Positions 4,652 to 37,413 of a stretch of 37,489 nt of DNA are shown here, piece by piece. A program made the position numbers and the translations under genes. Numbering within the stretch: position 1 is the stretch's first letter; every line of letters starts with the position of its first letter. Source of the stretch: Candidatus Harrisonbacteria bacterium (GTDB taxonomy: Bacteria; Patescibacteriota; Minisyncoccia; UBA6257; UBA11618); assembly GCA_016867415.1 (NCBI GenBank), contig VGJO01000003.1, positions 1 to 37,489 of the forward strand. Reading direction: 5' to 3'. A model generated the notes under the pieces. That model was given only the letters and a program-made list of their open reading frames with translations, did no database searches and was not told the origin of the DNA.

Positions 4652-5587
4652 CTAATACTCTCCTATCACCTGCTTATCGTCTTTCTGAGCCAAAAGCTGA
4701 TAGGTAAGGTATGAAGTTGAATCCGGCGCGCTTGCTATTACTTGATTAATAAATCTCACTTTCCCATCACAGAAAAGCGCAAATGCTCCGCCACTATGCT
4801 CGGAGGAAAAACCCAGATGATCTCGATAATCCCGACTATTGAGCGTTACTCCTCCAGTACATTCTCCTACATTGTCATAGTTTGGATGAGGAATTCCCGG
4901 CGAGTAAGATCCCATGGTCCGCTGACAGCACCAATTCCCTGCATTCGGCTGCTGCCATCTACCCATGTTATCCAAGTTCGGTTGAGTAGTAATCTCATAC
5001 CGGCGTTCGAGAAAGAGGAAAGTTTGACTCGTCCCGTCTCGGATAGAAGCAAGACCGATCGAACTATTCTGGTCAAAGATTCCAGAAAAAGGTGTCGGAG
5101 ACGCTCCAGTTCTCTGCGCTCCTCTATTCCCCAAATACGTCGTCATTCCATAGCCTCCTCGCCAAAGATTGGGATGAATTGAAGTATCCGACGGACAGAG
5201 AAACGCCGGGATCTTTGTCTGAAGAAGCACCACTACTGCTGGTGTCGTTGGCACCACCGAATTACTAATTGGTAATTTTTGATAAAGTCCCGCCTGATCC
5301 ATCTGCGGCAAGATCGCCCGCAAAATTCCCCATCGCCTATTATTCGTGGCTGGCGAGACTGCGTTTGATCCTACCCATCCCGGCGGAAACACCTTATTGC
5401 TATCCAGGTAGTTATGAAGAGCGAGACCGATCTGCTTTAGATTGCTCTGGCACTGCACCCGTCTCGCTGATTCTCTCGCCGCCTGCACCGCCGGCAAAAG
5501 AAGCGCGATAAGAACGGCAATAATAGCAATCACCACTAGAAGTTCAATGAGCGTAAATCCTTTCCGAGTCATGGAAAGCCCCTTCAA
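4652..5587 (-). CDS. DUF1559 (H-X9-DG) domain prepilin-like protein
   Basis: N-terminal type IV prepilin motif KGFTLIELLVVIAIIAVLIALLLPAVQAARESARRVQCQSNLKQIGLALHNY; C-terminal H-X9-DG (HSGGAFALFCDG). Confidence 0.93.
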   Translation of the reverse strand: MKGLSMTRKGFTLIELLVVIAIIAVLIALLLPAVQAARESARRVQCQSNLKQIGLALHNYLDSNKVFPPGWVGSNAVSPATNNRRWGILRAILPQMDQAGLYQKLPISNSVVPTTPAVVVLLQTKIPAFLCPSDTSIHPNLWRGGYGMTTYLGNRGAQRTGASPTPFSGIFDQNSSIGLASIRDGTSQTFLFLERRYEITTQPNLDNMGRWQQPNAGNWCCQRTMGSYSPGIPHPNYDNVGECTGGVTLNSRDYRDHLGFSSEHSGGAFALFCDGKVRFINQVIASAPDSTSYLTYQLLAQKDDKQVIGEY

Positions 5588-9423: not shown

Positions 9424-9560
9424 GAACACCTTTGGTCAATTGTGGATAAGATTTTTCCTCCAAAAAATAATTTTCTACAAATCCCAAAAAAGAAAAAATT
9501 ATTTAAAAAGAAATAAACTCTATAACAAAGACTCAACAATACAAGATTAATTTCCGAAAA

Positions 9561-9670
9561 TTTTTTTCCAAAGACAAGACATTTCAGAAAAATATGCGAG
9601 AGGCATACATAAGGGAAGTATGTCGACCAAATATTTTTCTGAAATAACACAGTATTTGGGAAAAAAGACC
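9561..9670. repeat. ~110-bp palindromic repeat family, copy 1
   Basis: TTTTTTTCC-AAAGACAAG...GAGGCATACATAAG...TATGTCGA...CAGTATTTGGGAAAAAAGAC, matching the blocks at 15841-15951. Confidence 0.7.
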
Positions 9671-9676
9671 AAAAAT

Positions 9677-10432
9677 TTATTTCAGATCAAAAGTGATGGA
9701 GACAGACGCCGCCACCTCTTGCGCCACTATCTCCATATCTTGTGTGGGCACCGCCGCGCACATCCCTCCATACGTCGGATTGTAAGAAGTAAAGTTTGAA
9801 TTTTCACTAAAAGAGTTTATTCCGCCAATCTTCTTATCCATCGCCTTGGCAATTCCCTTCGCTTTTTCCTTAGCTTTCACGATAGCTTCTTCTCTTGCGG
9901 CAGAAAGCGCCCCATCCTGATCAGAAAAAGTAAGACAGCTTCCATATCCTGATCCCGGAACAAACCCCGCTTCCTCTCCCGCTTTCATTACTTGGCTAAT
10001 CTTTTGAGAAAGCTTCACTGGATCCTTCTCTTCGAGCTTCACGTAGACATTCTTCGTATCTTGATAATCTCCCTCCGGAAATCCGCTATTGCCACTCGTA
10101 TATGAACTCGCCAAATAAATATCTTCTTTCTCTACTCCTGCGACCCCCATCACTTCATACAGCTTCTTGAAAAGTCCCGTTGATTGCCTTGACGCCGCCG
10201 CTTGGGTATCTCCTCTCCCTTCCACACTAAAAGAAATATATGCTTTATCCGGCACTGCTTTCGTCTTCGCCTCCACAGATACAGAAACGGTCCGATAAGA
10301 AGTCGGGCCACTTTGTACCCTTCCTACTACATCATATGCCGCCAATACCGCCGTAAAAACTATTAAAAGAAATAGTATATACACGCCCCATCGTACAAAC
10401 ATCTTTTCTCTTTCTCCTAAAATAGTATCCAT
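9677..10432 (-). CDS. SIMPL (DUF541) domain protein, membrane-anchored
   Basis: N-terminal TM; VSVSVEAKTKAVPDKAYISFSVEGRGDTQAAASR and C-terminal AREEAIVKAKEKAKGIAKAM. Confidence 0.85.
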   Translation of the reverse strand: MDTILGEREKMFVRWGVYILFLLIVFTAVLAAYDVVGRVQSGPTSYRTVSVSVEAKTKAVPDKAYISFSVEGRGDTQAAASRQSTGLFKKLYEVMGVAGVEKEDIYLASSYTSGNSGFPEGDYQDTKNVYVKLEEKDPVKLSQKISQVMKAGEEAGFVPGSGYGSCLTFSDQDGALSAAREEAIVKAKEKAKGIAKAMDKKIGGINSFSENSNFTSYNPTYGGMCAAVPTQDMEIVAQEVAASVSITFDLK

Positions 10433-12790: not shown

Positions 12791-12900
12791 GATTTTTCCT
12801 TCAAGGCTAGAAGAAAATGGGGCTTACAAGGAAGCATAAGTACGCCGTATGTTGACGAATAGGCAAAAGCTTAGACAACGCCCTGGAGGAAAAAGACAAG
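12791..12900. repeat. ~110-bp palindromic repeat family, diverged copy
   Basis: GATTTTTCC...CAAGGC...GAAGCATAAGTACGCCGTATGTTGACGAAT...CAACGCCCTGGAGGAAAAAGAC; same block order as 9561 and 15841. Confidence 0.5.
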
Positions 12901-13128
12901 CGAAAATATAAAAAGATAGGAGTCTTCCCTCCCCCATCTCTTTTCCTAAGCAGTTCTTTGCATGTACACCTTTCCGAATTTTGGAAATGAAGAGTATCCA
13001 CTTTCAAACTCATAGATAAAGATCTGCCTCCAATCTTATCTTTTCCCTCATCTTGAATTTGCCCTAAAACCCAGTACACTATTTAAAATACTTTCCCGCC
13101 CATTGAAAACCATAGAAGGAGTTTCCTC

Positions 13129-14991: not shown

Positions 14992-15399
14992 TAGAAGTCC
15001 TTTCTTTATCTACAGGAAAAGCAAGAAGAAGGTTCCTCTTCTCACTAAGTTAAATTCTCAACGTCCTAAAAACCCACTTTGAAATTACCTTGCTTTCCTT
15101 AAAAAGTAAAGAGAAATCCTTTTCAAAAGAAAGTTTTTATGTTTATATAAATAACCCTCTAGTTTTTATTAAAAAATACTCGCTCTGCAAAAGCGCATAA
15201 TTTTTGGACGAGTCTCCACTGGCAATTAGCTCTCTTAAACTAAAAAATAAAAGAATTAGTAAAAAAGAACTAAAATGAGCTAGATCAGCGAGGCTCCCCA
15301 TTTCTTTTCGAGGAGCTACCGGAGCATACTAAGGGAAGTCTGTAAGGAGATACCGCAGGAAAAAACGGGAAAATTCGCCAAAAAGACAAGCTTAATAGA

Positions 15400-16608
15400 A
15401 TGAAGAAAATCCTCGCCATCGAAACCAGCTGCGACGACACAGGCCTCGCTTATGTAGAATGCGAAGGTTCTTTTCCTGATGCTATTTTCAAAGTCATTTC
15501 TTCTCGTCTCTCCTCCCAGACGCTCACTCACTCCCCCTATGGTGGTGTCGTCCCCATGCTCGCGAAGCGTGAACATATCAAAAATCTCCCCCTCCTCCTC
15601 GAAGAAATAAAAAAAGAATTCCGAGGAAAAAATATTCCTTTCACTCCGGATGAAATAGCAGTCACGATCGGACCCGGCCTTGAGCCCGCTCTCTGGGCCG
15701 GCCTCGAATTTGCCAAAAGCTTAGCCACCGAACTCAACCTCCCCCTAGTCGGCGTCAATCACCTCGAAGGCCATATCTACTCCAATTGGTTAAATGAAAA
15801 GAGCGAAAAAGAGACGTCACAAAGCAGAAGTAATTTCGCTGGATTTTTTCCCAAAGACAAGGCGCAAGTGAGCAATACTCGCGAGGCATATGTAAGAGTG
15901 AATGTCGAGCGAGAAAGCGAAGCGAGCAACGCAGTATCCGGGAAAAAAGACGCAAAATTACCTTTACCAGCATTAATTTTATTAGTCTCCGGCGGCCACA
16001 CCATCCTCCTCCTGATGAAAGCCCAAAATGATTTTCAAATTCTCGGCGAGACTCGCGACGACGCCGTCGGTGAAGCCTTTGACAAGGTGGCAAAAATGCT
16101 TGGTCTCCCCTACCCCGGCGGCCCTGAGATCGAACGCCTCACACGCTATCATTCTGGACTTGATCTGGAATCCAGTAAATGTAAGCTACCAAACTCCTCA
16201 TCTCTTATAAAATTTCCAAGACCAATGATCAATTCCAAAGACTATGATTTTTCCTTCTCAGGCTTAAAAACCGCCGTCCTCTATCATCTCCGCGACAATC
16301 CAATAAAAAACGACGAGAATAAAGCTCTCATTGCCGCCTCTTTCCAAGCCGCCGTTTTTGATCTTTTGAAAAGTAAAATAAAAAAAGCTATCAACGAATT
16401 TCACCCCATATCCCTTTTCCTCTGCGGCGGCGTCGCTATGAACTCCCTTCTCCGCACTGCTCTCACACAAGTAGCAAACGAATCCGAAATCACCTTTCAT
16501 GCCCCTGCTCCTGGCCTCAACTCCGACAATGCCATCATGATCGCTTTCGCCGCCTACCTTGGCCGTCCCTACCCTACAAGCACCGTCCATGGCCACCTTT
16601 CTCTTTAG
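15400..16608 (+). CDS. tsaD: tRNA N6-adenosine threonylcarbamoyltransferase TsaD, with two repeat-derived insertions
   Basis: MKKILAIETSCDDTGLA, GVNHLEGHIYSNW, LILLVSGGHT, KMLGLPYPGGPEIE, DFSFSGLKTAV, LCGGVAMNSLLR. Confidence 0.97.
   Translation: MKKILAIETSCDDTGLAYVECEGSFPDAIFKVISSRLSSQTLTHSPYGGVVPMLAKREHIKNLPLLLEEIKKEFRGKNIPFTPDEIAVTIGPGLEPALWAGLEFAKSLATELNLPLVGVNHLEGHIYSNWLNEKSEKETSQSRSNFAGFFPKDKAQVSNTREAYVRVNVERESEASNAVSGKKDAKLPLPALILLVSGGHTILLLMKAQNDFQILGETRDDAVGEAFDKVAKMLGLPYPGGPEIERLTRYHSGLDLESSKCKLPNSSSLIKFPRPMINSKDYDFSFSGLKTAVLYHLRDNPIKNDENKALIAASFQAAVFDLLKSKIKKAINEFHPISLFLCGGVAMNSLLRTALTQVANESEITFHAPAPGLNSDNAIMIAFAAYLGRPYPTSTVHGHLSL
15841..15951. repeat. ~110-bp palindromic repeat inserted in frame in tsaD
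   Basis: GGATTTTTTCCCAAAGACAAGGCGCAAG...GCGAGGCATATGTAAG...ATGTCGAGCGAG...GCAGTATCCGGGAAAAAAGACG; ends form an inverted repeat TTTTTTCCC/GGGAAAAAA. Confidence 0.75.
16150..16175. repeat. Short palindromic repeat (family 2) in tsaD
   Basis: CATTCTGGACTTGATCTGGAATCCAG, near-identical to 18468-18490 in valS. Confidence 0.7.
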
Positions 16609-16643: not shown

Positions 16644-18842
16644 ATGGCTCTCCCTGAGATTTTCAAAACTCCCTACAACCCTAAAGATCACGAAAAAAGA
16701 ATATATGAAGCCGAACTCTCCTCCGGCCTCTTCAACCCCGACAATCTAGAAAACACTGGTAAGCCCCCCTACGTCATCATGATGCCTCCGCCAAATGTCA
16801 CTGGTGTCCTTCATATGGGCCATGCTCTCATGCTCACAATCGAAGACATCTTAATCCGCTACAAGCGCCTCCAGGGCTACCGCACTCTCTGGCTTCCCGG
16901 CACTGATCACGCCGCAATCGCCACCCAAGTTCGCGTCGAAAAAGATCTGCAAAAAAAAGAAGGGAAATCCCGCTTCGATCTCGGTCGTGATGACTTTTTA
17001 AAACTAGTAGAAAAATTCGCTTTTGATTCTCATGACACCATCACCTCTCAGATCAAAATAATGGGTGCCTCCTGCGACTGGAGCCGTGAAGCGTATACTC
17101 TTGATGAAAAACGCAACCAAGCCGTCAATACCGTTTTCAAAAAAATGCATAACGACGGCCTTATCTACCAAGGCTACCGCGTGGTCAATTTTGATGTGAA
17201 GGGTGGTACGGTAGTAAGTGATGATGAGCTCGTCTATGAAGAACGTGACGCCACTCTCTACACCTTCCGCTATTCTCCCGAATTCCCTATTGAGATCGCG
17301 ACTACTCGCCCCGAGACCAAAGTTGGCGACACCGCCGTCGCCGTTCATCCCGACGACCCCCGCTACCAAAGCTATATTGGCAAAGATTATTCTTTTGATT
17401 TTTGCCATGTCCCTGTCTCAGTCAAAATCATCGCCGACCCTTCTGTAGAAAAAGATTTTGGCACCGGCGCGCTTGGCGTCACTCCAGCGCATAGCTTAAT
17501 CGATGCTGACATTGCCGAGCGGCATCATCTCCCTCTAAAGCAAGTCATCTCTGAACGCGGCCGCATGATTAACACGATCCCCGCCCTTGATGGCAAAAAG
17601 ACTCTTGAAGCCCGTGAAACCATTGTCTCCTGGCTGAAGGAAAATAATCTCATAAGCAAAGAAGAAAAGATTAAGCAAAATGTCGCTACTGCCGAACGCA
17701 CGAGCGGCATCATTGAGCCTCTTCCGAAAAAACAATGGTTTGTGGCGGTCAATAAATCATTCTCCCTCCCCCACTCCGCAATCCCTGGTATAGAAAGCGG
17801 GAGCACTACTACCTTGAAAGAAATTATGAAGCGCAGTGTAGAATCTGGTGCTATCACTATCAAGCCCGCTCACTTTGCAAAGACCTACTTCAACTGGGTC
17901 GACAATCTCCGCGACTGGTGTGTGAGTCGCCAAATCTGGTTTGGCCACCGTATCCCCGTCTGGTATCGAAATGAAGAAATAGTAGTGAGTGGAGATAAGC
18001 CCGAAGGTGAGGGCTGGATCCAAGACGAAGACACCCTCGACACATGGTTTTCCTCCGCCCTTTGGACTTTCTCTACGCTCGGCTGGCCAGAAAAAACCAA
18101 AGATTTAAAAACTTTTCACCCCACTGATGTCCTCGAGACTGGTTACGAAATTATTTTCTTCTGGGTCGCCCGCATGATTATGATGAGTGGCTATGCTCTC
18201 GGTGAAATTCCTTTTCGTCACATTCTCCTCCACGGCACCGTCCGCGATGCGCAAGGCCGCAAGATGAGCAAGTCATTAGGTAATGGCATCGATCCTTTAG
18301 ACATCGCCGAGAAATACGGCGCCGACGCCGGCCGCCTCGCATTAGTCTACGGCACCGCTCCCGGTACCGATAGCAAAATAAGCGAGGAAAAAATCAAAGG
18401 CATGAAACATTTTGCAAATAAGCTCTGGAACATCGCCCGCTTCATCCTCGAAAATACCGAAGATTGTCATTCCAGACTTGATCTGGAATCTATAAAAAAG
18501 AACCCTTCCTTAACTACCGCCGATAAAGCCATCCTCTCCTCTTTCGAAAACACCGTAAAAAAAGTCGAGGCCGATCTTGAAGCGCAGGATCTGCACACCG
18601 CCGCCGAAGAGCTCTACTCCTTTGTCTGGATGAAGTTTGCCGACGAGTATCTCGAAGTAAGCAAACTTCAACTCAAAAACGAAACACAAAAAGAATCCAC
18701 ACAAAAAATTCTTCTCTATCTCCTAGAAAATTCCTTAATCCTTCTCCATCCCTTCATCCCCTTTGTCACCGAAGCGATTTATGAACATATCCCCGATCGT
18801 CCGTCCACGCTACTATTAGTAGCAAGATGGCCCTCTCTTTAA
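16644..18842 (+). CDS. valS: Valyl-tRNA synthetase (short form)
   Basis: PPPNVTGVLHMGHAL, TTRPET, DTWFSSALW, GRKMSKSLGNGIDPLD. Confidence 0.97.
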   Translation: MALPEIFKTPYNPKDHEKRIYEAELSSGLFNPDNLENTGKPPYVIMMPPPNVTGVLHMGHALMLTIEDILIRYKRLQGYRTLWLPGTDHAAIATQVRVEKDLQKKEGKSRFDLGRDDFLKLVEKFAFDSHDTITSQIKIMGASCDWSREAYTLDEKRNQAVNTVFKKMHNDGLIYQGYRVVNFDVKGGTVVSDDELVYEERDATLYTFRYSPEFPIEIATTRPETKVGDTAVAVHPDDPRYQSYIGKDYSFDFCHVPVSVKIIADPSVEKDFGTGALGVTPAHSLIDADIAERHHLPLKQVISERGRMINTIPALDGKKTLEARETIVSWLKENNLISKEEKIKQNVATAERTSGIIEPLPKKQWFVAVNKSFSLPHSAIPGIESGSTTTLKEIMKRSVESGAITIKPAHFAKTYFNWVDNLRDWCVSRQIWFGHRIPVWYRNEEIVVSGDKPEGEGWIQDEDTLDTWFSSALWTFSTLGWPEKTKDLKTFHPTDVLETGYEIIFFWVARMIMMSGYALGEIPFRHILLHGTVRDAQGRKMSKSLGNGIDPLDIAEKYGADAGRLALVYGTAPGTDSKISEEKIKGMKHFANKLWNIARFILENTEDCHSRLDLESIKKNPSLTTADKAILSSFENTVKKVEADLEAQDLHTAAEELYSFVWMKFADEYLEVSKLQLKNETQKESTQKILLYLLENSLILLHPFIPFVTEAIYEHIPDRPSTLLLVARWPSL
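18465..18490. repeat. Short palindromic repeat (family 2) in valS
   Basis: TGTCATTCCAGACTTGATCTGGAATC; perfect IR ATTCCAGA-CTTGA-TCTGGAAT. Confidence 0.7.
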
Positions 18843-35431: not shown

Positions 35432-35621
35432 ACGCGCTCCAATCCCGCCGATAAATCTGTCCGCCAAAAAAATTTCAGGGCGAAGCCCAAGCAGGCGGGC
35501 AAAAAGGAAGGGGGTTGGGGGGAAGGAATTTTTGCCCGCCTGCTTTTGAGCGGCGGCGGGGCGGTTTCCTTAGTCGGGGTTCTGCTCAAAGAAAGTTCGA
35601 ACATTAATCAAAAACGACCGC
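35432..35621. repeat. 190-bp inverted repeat, right copy
   Basis: Inverse of 28307-28496; the ORF track also shows the shared peptide FELSLSRTPTKETAPPPLKSRRAKIPSPQPPSFLPACLGFALKFFWRTDLSAGLERV from both copies. Confidence 0.95.
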
Positions 35622-35875
35622 CAAATTGTACTTTTTGCGAAATCGTAAGATGTTGCCTCGGCGCTTCGCGCCTCGGCATGGTATTTTTCCGCAATTTTGA
35701 AGGCATTTTTGAAATCCAAAAACAAGGTGCGGTCGGCAATGCGGAAGTTCCTGTGCGACAGAACAGAGAAAACGAAGTTTTCAAAACCAATCTTTTTTCT
35801 TTCGCCTCTGGCGAAAGGTTGAGCACATTTTTCTTTGATTGCCCAAAAGCTAACTTCAAAACAATATGGACAACT
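35618..35875 (-). pseudogene. Inverted, internally deleted remnant of a serine recombinase gene
   Basis: Reverse complement matches recombinase 37236-37369 closely and 36253-36290 more weakly; minus ORF KLAFGQSKKNVLNLSPEAKE vs SIAFGQSKYYVDNLSENIKR. Confidence 0.75.
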
Positions 35876-37413
35876 TAAATTTACAAACCAAAAAGTTTTT
35901 CCTCTATGCTCGCAAATCTACGGACGAGCCAGAGAGGCAGGTTTTAAGTATTGAGGCGCAAATGTTTGAACTGCGAGAATTTGCCAAAAAAGAAGGCTTG
36001 AATATCGTCCGTGAATTTGTGGAAAGCAAAACCGCCAAAGAACCGGGCAGAGAAATTTTTAACGAAATGGTGGCGAGCATAGAGAAAAATGAAGCCGAGG
36101 GAATTTTAGCGTGGCACCCTGACCGCCTTGCGAGAAATAGTATAGACGGCGGACGAATAATTTATTTGATAGATACTGGCAAAATATCCGCGCTAAAATT
36201 CCCGACTTTTTGGTTTGATCCGACACCACAGGGAAAATTTATGTTGTCCATTGCTTTTGGGCAATCAAAATATTATGTGGATAATCTTTCGGAAAACATA
36301 AAGAGGGGTATTCGCCAGAAGCTGCGAAATGGAATATGGCCCGCTTGGGCGCCACTGGGCTATATAAACGACAAAAACGCTCGCTGTATCACTGTTGATA
36401 AAGAAAAAGCAAAATATATCAAGCGGGCCTTTGAAATGTACGCCACTGGCGAATACCCCCTCGCTCAAATCCGAAAGATTATCAATTCCTTGGGCTTGGT
36501 TGGCAAGAAAGGCAAGATGCTTTCGGTCTCAAATTATCAATATATGCTCAAAAATAAAATCTATTACGGAATTATTGAATACAACGGCGAAATGTATGAC
36601 GGAAAGCATGAACCGATTGTCACAAAGAAACTTTTTGATTCCGTTCAAGAAGTGATGATGAATAAATCTAAACCGAAAACGCCAAAATTGAAACCTTATG
36701 TGTATAGAGGATTTTTCCGTTGCGGAGAGTGCGGTTGCTTCATCACGACCGAAACACAAAAGAGTCATAACTATTTGCGATGCACTAAACGGAAAAATCC
36801 TTGCACGCAAAAATATGTCCGTGAAGAAATCATCACTTCTCAAATAAAGGAAGAAATCAAAAAAGTTTCTTTGTCTTCCGCTTGGGCAAATGCTTCAATC
36901 AATTATTTTGAAAACGAGAAAATGAAAATTGCCCAAGCGGAAAGCTCTTTCGCCCAAAAAGCGAGGCGGGAGCTTGTAGAGATAGAAACGAAACTTGATC
37001 GCTTGCTGGATTTGCAACTGGACGGCAATTTGTCGCAAGCGGAATATACCGCCAAAAAGCACAAGCTCATTCTCGCTAAAAAAGATTTTGAAGAAAAAAT
37101 CATCGCTTTTGGGCGAAAAAGTAATAATCGGTTCGAACTTGCCATAAACTTCATAAAAGAAGCCAACCAAGCCGAAAAATGCGCTCAACAAGAAAATCCC
37201 GAAAGGATTCGGGATTTTCTCAAAAAGATTGGTTCGAACTTCCGCATTGCCGACCGCACTTTGGTTTTGGATTTCAAAAATGCCTTCAAAATTGCGGAAA
37301 AATACCATGCCGAGGCGCTTTGCGCCGAGGCTAATTCTTACGATTTCACAAAAAGTGAAAATTGGCGGTGTGCTTTCGAAAAAATTCGAACTGATTTCGC
37401 CCAAAATTTGTAG
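35866..37413 (+). CDS. Large serine recombinase (resolvase/recombinase/zinc-ribbon)
   Basis: FFLYARKSTDEPERQVLSIEAQ, LAWHPDRLARNSIDGGRI, NLSENIKRGIRQKLRNG, zinc ribbon CGECGCFIT...CTKRKNPC, coiled coil. Confidence 0.96.
   Translation: MDNLNLQTKKFFLYARKSTDEPERQVLSIEAQMFELREFAKKEGLNIVREFVESKTAKEPGREIFNEMVASIEKNEAEGILAWHPDRLARNSIDGGRIIYLIDTGKISALKFPTFWFDPTPQGKFMLSIAFGQSKYYVDNLSENIKRGIRQKLRNGIWPAWAPLGYINDKNARCITVDKEKAKYIKRAFEMYATGEYPLAQIRKIINSLGLVGKKGKMLSVSNYQYMLKNKIYYGIIEYNGEMYDGKHEPIVTKKLFDSVQEVMMNKSKPKTPKLKPYVYRGFFRCGECGCFITTETQKSHNYLRCTKRKNPCTQKYVREEIITSQIKEEIKKVSLSSAWANASINYFENEKMKIAQAESSFAQKARRELVEIETKLDRLLDLQLDGNLSQAEYTAKKHKLILAKKDFEEKIIAFGRKSNNRFELAINFIKEANQAEKCAQQENPERIRDFLKKIGSNFRIADRTLVLDFKNAFKIAEKYHAEALCAEANSYDFTKSENWRCAFEKIRTDFAQNL

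Follow-up and report, generated by a model that had tools for sequence, protein, structure and literature searches.

In Rickettsia conorii, nearly half of the Rickettsia palindromic elements (RPEs) lie within open reading frames (ORFs) (PMC10969869). ERIC, Correia and RUP elements are MITEs of about 107-155 bp with inverted repeats and TA termini, and they are intergenic, with some copies fused to ORFs (PMC2229807). REPs are 20-40 bp long and carry a GTAG tag (PMC3733652). Here we describe a hairpin repeat that lies in frame in tsaD of a Candidatus Harrisonbacteria genome (G000; 631.5 kb in 12 contigs, 99.85% complete). The window, meaning the whole stretch of 37,489 nucleotides that was analysed, is contig C3 of this genome. 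The gene and its insert are:

15400 to 16608, + strand: tsaD, encoding tRNA N6-adenosine threonylcarbamoyltransferase, identified by Pfam, alignment, AlphaFold2 and Foldseek; the element codes for residues ~141/144-187
15820 to 15962, + strand: structured palindromic element, in frame in tsaD, with a conserved core at 15841-15956 and TA..TA at 15831-32 / 15959-60

The gene is a single open frame of 402 amino acids that contains no stop codon, and its product matches the Pfam family TsaD (PF00814) at 5e-73. An initial annotation had placed a palindromic repeat of about 110 bp in frame in this essential gene, at 15841-15951. Our analysis confirms the repeat, its frame and its location; the element is longer than was claimed, extending from about 15820/15831 to 15962. 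Using blastn, we found that positions 15827-15966 are 85% identical over 142 bp to C2:39256-39397 (E 4e-35) and 82% identical to C2:88164-88298 (E 4e-29), both of which are intergenic. The similarity thus survives proper alignment and is well beyond chance. The remainder of tsaD matches nothing but its own second small repeat, described below. The left end of the element probably reaches about 15820, judging from a motif, AAAGCAGA-TAATTT, that the tsaD copy shares with C2:188163, C2:204283 and C2:181365. A possible degenerate copy at 15300-15395, immediately upstream of tsaD, was considered and rejected: this stretch folds no better than shuffled sequence and is missed by the covariance models.

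Two further copies lie in the window:

9548 to 9683, + strand: intergenic copy directly past the stop codon of a - strand gene (9677-10432), 2 nt from the gene end
12791 to 12902, + strand: third copy, diverged in sequence and flanked by recG and dcd (neighbours named by Pfam), with a covariance-model E of 2.4e-10

The first of these had been recognised at 9561-9670 as the same repeat as that in tsaD, which holds (66% identity between 15827-15966 and 9548-9677, E 5e-11); the second had not been listed. Since the matches on C2 reach 82-85%, the tsaD copy has its closest relatives elsewhere in the genome. The intergenic copy at 9548-9683 is itself 98% identical to C2:85031-85161, an unrelated locus. 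This identity despite unrelated flanks (9550-9680 versus C2:85031-85161) points to a recent duplication. The description of the repeat as palindromic applies well to the copy at 9548-9683, which folds as a hairpin with perfect arms (z = -7.9), and less well to the tsaD copy (z = -2.8). Covariance models built from 10 and then 45 copies detected 27-29 copies in the genome, and the tsaD copy scored 90.9 bits (E 8.7e-18) as a member of the training set. Three copies (C2:151409, C2:204029 and C1:58733) form a subfamily with an extra side hairpin (GTGCCGAGTACTCTCAGCATAAGACGA), giving a branched rod. Elsewhere in the window, a pair of 134-bp inverted repeats (35617-35750 and 37236-37369; 91% identical) brackets a serine recombinase gene (35866-37413), and one member of the pair lies inside the 3' part of this gene. 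The distance from the end of a related recombinase gene to the element copy at C2:85040 is 51 bp. An ORF at 4652-5587 has a prepilin-like N-terminus, which we take to resemble those of Planctomycetes DUF1559 proteins and presume to be unusual for a CPR genome.

The family extends well beyond this genome. Covariance-model matches occur in genomes of the order (42 of 244) and in samples of the class (87 of 384) and the phylum (48 of 380); the E-values in these surveys are rough, and single weak matches may be chance. A control search of 541 kb of other contigs yielded nothing below E 0.0085. No family in Rfam 15 was matched by the window at gathering scores or by eight loci at E <= 1, and no description of the family was found in the literature searched, mostly outside subscription papers. 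The core of the element measures 110-117 nt, or about 130-140 nt with the outer arms, and copies share a fold of outer, middle and apical helices separated by purine-rich internal loops with near-fixed G/A columns. Across 45 copies from nine genomes, 92% of helix cells are paired, compared with 65% after shuffling, and two-sided changes occur in 28 of 29 pairs. The corresponding values for 112 copies are 90.8% and 68%, with 631 two-sided cells compared with 158. These figures lean towards structure, the copies having been aligned to the model. At 13 sites common to two genomes of one genus (G233 and G234), we counted 64 two-sided changes that kept the pair and 49 that broke it; some orthologous sites in these genomes are occupied by different subtypes. 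Among copies from G018 and G058 (L088, L090, L096, L100, L101, L106), the outermost 10 bp or so and the middle stem differ wholly yet remain complementary, while the neighbouring loops are constant. G.U pairs outnumber A.C pairs (86:30 and 192:64, one conserved U.G pair supplying 88 of the 192), indicating that the + strand is the one that folds. Together, these observations point to a hitherto unlisted, strand-specific hairpin family in many Patescibacteria (CPR), in which base pairing and internal loops are preserved as the arms change.

We examined the placement of 149 copies from six genomes, 145 of which have a right-hand neighbour. That neighbour is encoded opposite to the element in 119 of the 145, at a median distance of 5 nt; where it is on the same strand, it starts within 12 nt in 10 of 26 cases. 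A gene boundary lies <=12 nt from the right end of the element in 105 of 145 copies, and <=12 nt from the left end in just 3 of the 145. At the usual site, directly after a stop codon or tRNA, the folded strand is antisense to the adjacent gene. Orientation also agrees with GC skew in 127 of 149 copies and does not vary on the large Harrisonbacteria contigs; on C1, where genes are mostly on the + strand, 11 of 11 copies are on the + strand. A pure replication-strand rule fits this genome. Exceptions to the local GC skew occur, however, in both G234 (4 of 31 copies) and G233 (8 of 23), which makes the gene-end rule the more general.

This placement raises the main rival to a mobile-element account, namely that the primary role of the family is that of a functional nucleic-acid element kept at gene ends (a 3'-end stabiliser, bidirectional terminator or antisense RNA), which is copied incidentally and reached tsaD by accident. 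Such a function would be consistent with the 95 of 145 copies whose right end lies <=12 nt from the stop codon or tRNA 3' end that closes a gene on the other strand, with the conservation of the fold through two-sided changes at orthologous sites, and with outer arms that are copy-specific yet complementary. Many copies are common to orthologous sites, which also fits a functional element kept vertically. However, the G.U test identifies as folded the strand antisense to the adjacent gene, which does not suit a terminator acting on that gene. Sister species are without copies, or carry replaced copies, at identical gene ends, and in the phylum the majority of the searched genomes gave no match. 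Nor did we detect enrichment of U-tracts: unique palindromic flanks in G233 and G234 show no excess of terminator tails over mismatched flanks (observed 3.04 versus 2.96), in a crude test whose null result arises partly because the right end of the model overruns the stem. We regard a primary gene-end function as an unlikely explanation of the family, although the two accounts may both hold.

The consequences for the protein were examined by aligning TsaD with 29 alignable relatives. Between the GHxYSNW and PALxLLVSGGHT motifs, TsaD of this genome has a linker of 56 residues, compared with 3-31 across the order and 4-15 in its own family. The insertion is missing from all 29 relatives, in which the linkers are short and variable. 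The initial annotation had attributed about 55 extra residues to the repeat; the insertion is real, but the element codes for only about 44-48 of these residues, including residues 144-187 (SNFAGFF..DAKL), and the preceding EKSEKETSQ looks to be mostly host linker. Residues of the catalytic region that are invariant in a 27-sequence alignment, including the HxxGH and SGGHT motifs, are intact. The AlphaFold2 model has a mean pLDDT of 86 and a pTM of 0.84, and its top Foldseek match is E. coli TsaD (4wq5; TM 0.89 by target length). Since residues 135-185 have pLDDT <50 within this otherwise confident fold, the insert most likely forms a disordered surface loop, consistent with the position anticipated for it. 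From the open frame alone, we infer that the insert is translated. Outside the sampled genomes, TsaD matches are mostly from Patescibacteria/Parcubacteria MAGs, at about 36-44% identity, which marks the host as a CPR bacterium; the relatives compared belong to other genera.

A count of copies within conserved ORFs, which the initial annotation had proposed, gave 2 of 149 in the six genomes: tsaD and, in G233, ksgA/rsmA (Pfam RrnaAD, 1e-42). Frames spanning copies at NusB (G234) and PriA (G058) were dropped from this count, the native start most likely lying after the element. In ksgA, the family member is in frame and open and adds about 37 residues, and residues 100-130 of the AlphaFold model have pLDDT <50 in an otherwise confident fold. 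Within the genus of G233, the same loop is empty in G234 and G235, and in G236 it holds an unrelated palindromic repeat; the empty site is too diverged for exact element ends to be read. Sister species differ at this one loop, which supports gain and loss within ORFs without recourse to tsaD. Open frames occur on the + strand of 68 of 142 copies and on the - strand of 104 of 142, compared with about 31 per strand in shuffled sequence, which is common enough for in-frame insertion to be possible. A different KsgA loop of G234 and G235 contains a VIPAEAGIH/VIPAKAGIQ-type repeat, and our data suggest that KsgA loops are a hot spot for in-frame repeat insertion. In five genomes (L375-L378, L381), these loops hold at least three kinds of repeat-derived peptide (hairpin element, VIPAKAGIQ type and CHSREGGNP type).

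In-frame repeats in the window are not restricted to the hairpin family:

16149 to 16179, + strand: small palindromic repeat (TCATTCTGGACTTGATCTGGAATCCAG) unrelated to the hairpin element, a second in-frame insert of tsaD
18467 to 18497, + strand: small repeat (CHSRLDLESIKK) within the reading frame of a ValS-like gene for a class I tRNA synthetase, named by Pfam

One small repeat family (TCATTCCAGACTTGATCTGGAATC / TCATTCYRGACTTGATCTGGAATC) is common to both genes; it has 13 copies in 475 kb of the genome, 13 of 13 on the + strand. In TsaD, it contributes 15 extra residues (RYHSGLDLESSKCKL) that nearly all relatives lack. Thus, core translation enzymes (TsaD, KsgA and a class I tRNA synthetase) are affected, and several unrelated repeat families use the same loops.

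A stable hairpin in an essential gene has the outline of known bypassing elements, and TsaD could conceivably be made without the insert if this were removed or bypassed during expression, as by a self-splicing RNA, an intein-like process or ribosome hopping. We consider this very improbable: there is no Rfam intron match, the frame is open without a stop codon, and the ksgA insert is likewise open and in frame. Moreover, the insertion site is a loop of naturally variable length, so no removal is needed. That the segment is an ordinary hypervariable TsaD loop, in keeping with linkers of 3-31 residues in the order, and its DNA similarity a product of chance or low complexity, is refuted by the match to the intergenic copy and can be dismissed.

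We favour, as probable, the explanation that the insert is one copy of a non-autonomous, interspersed hairpin family found across Patescibacteria, which propagates or has propagated within genomes and is tolerated in a tsaD loop. Under this model, the elements would copy themselves or be copied within genomes; one strand forms a long rod whose helices covary and whose G.A-rich internal loops are conserved, and this folded single strand may be the target of mobilising machinery or of selection. Copies would mostly be retained directly 3' of genes, the site of least harm, with an occasional landing inside an ORF, as in tsaD of the Harrisonbacteria genome and ksgA of G233. Where an open frame, a fitting net length and a disordered, length-tolerant surface loop coincide, the protein could still work and would gain a peptide. 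Some observations sit awkwardly with this model. Searches for the Y1 transposase and the integron integrase, detailed below, yielded no mobilising enzyme. The TA..TA at the element ends could mark a target-site duplication but, TA being self-complementary, is indistinguishable from part of the inverted repeats. The TA-to-TA distance of 128 in tsaD is also not divisible by 3, which requires either a subsequent indel or element ends at other positions. A broader proposal, which we offer tentatively and think rather doubtful, is that structured elements across the phylum are mobile in the form of a folded single strand, either ssDNA or RNA. Replication or gene 3' ends would then determine the side and strand of insertion, and essential proteins would occasionally acquire new peptide loops in this way.

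Comparison with described systems places the family close to several of them. Like attC sites, the elements are single-strand hairpins with variable arms that follow stop codons and whose folded strand is antisense to the gene; unlike attC sites, they are dispersed single copies with no constant R boxes seen, and a search for the integron integrase IntI (TIGR02249) gave nothing above cut-off in ten element-rich genomes. Like REP/BIME repeats with RAYT, they are hairpins near stop codons; they differ in length (110-140 nt), and the Y1 transposase domain (Y1_Tnp, PF01797) is absent from G000 and G003, which led us to reject RAYT mobilisation. With ERIC, Correia and RUP, they share a comparable size, TA ends, an intergenic location with some copies in ORFs and, in the Harrisonbacteria genome, terminal inverted repeats (TAATTT..AAATTA) with an outer stem. 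In contrast to those MITEs, their arms covary while internal loops stay constant, a fixed side abuts the gene end, and no partner transposase (Y1_Tnp was sought) or shared TIR was identified. The parallel with RPEs, which the initial annotation had drawn, holds in part. Compared by description, both are palindromes of 100-150 bp that are dispersed in many copies per genome (27-29 in G000, with hairpin folds), have an open frame and enter unrelated housekeeping ORFs in frame at tolerated surface positions, as recurs in ksgA. The family departs from RPEs in its phylum, its strand-specific covarying fold and the rarity of ORF insertion, most copies lying directly after stop codons. Since tested defining features fail (for RPEs, frequent location in ORFs), we conclude that the family is a variant of interspersed palindromic elements outside the RPE, REP/RAYT and attC families, and mainly a gene-end hairpin. 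The tsaD event itself fits a parallel with RPE insertion by analogy, and indicates that repeat-made peptide segments, known mainly from Rickettsia, also arise in reduced CPR genomes.
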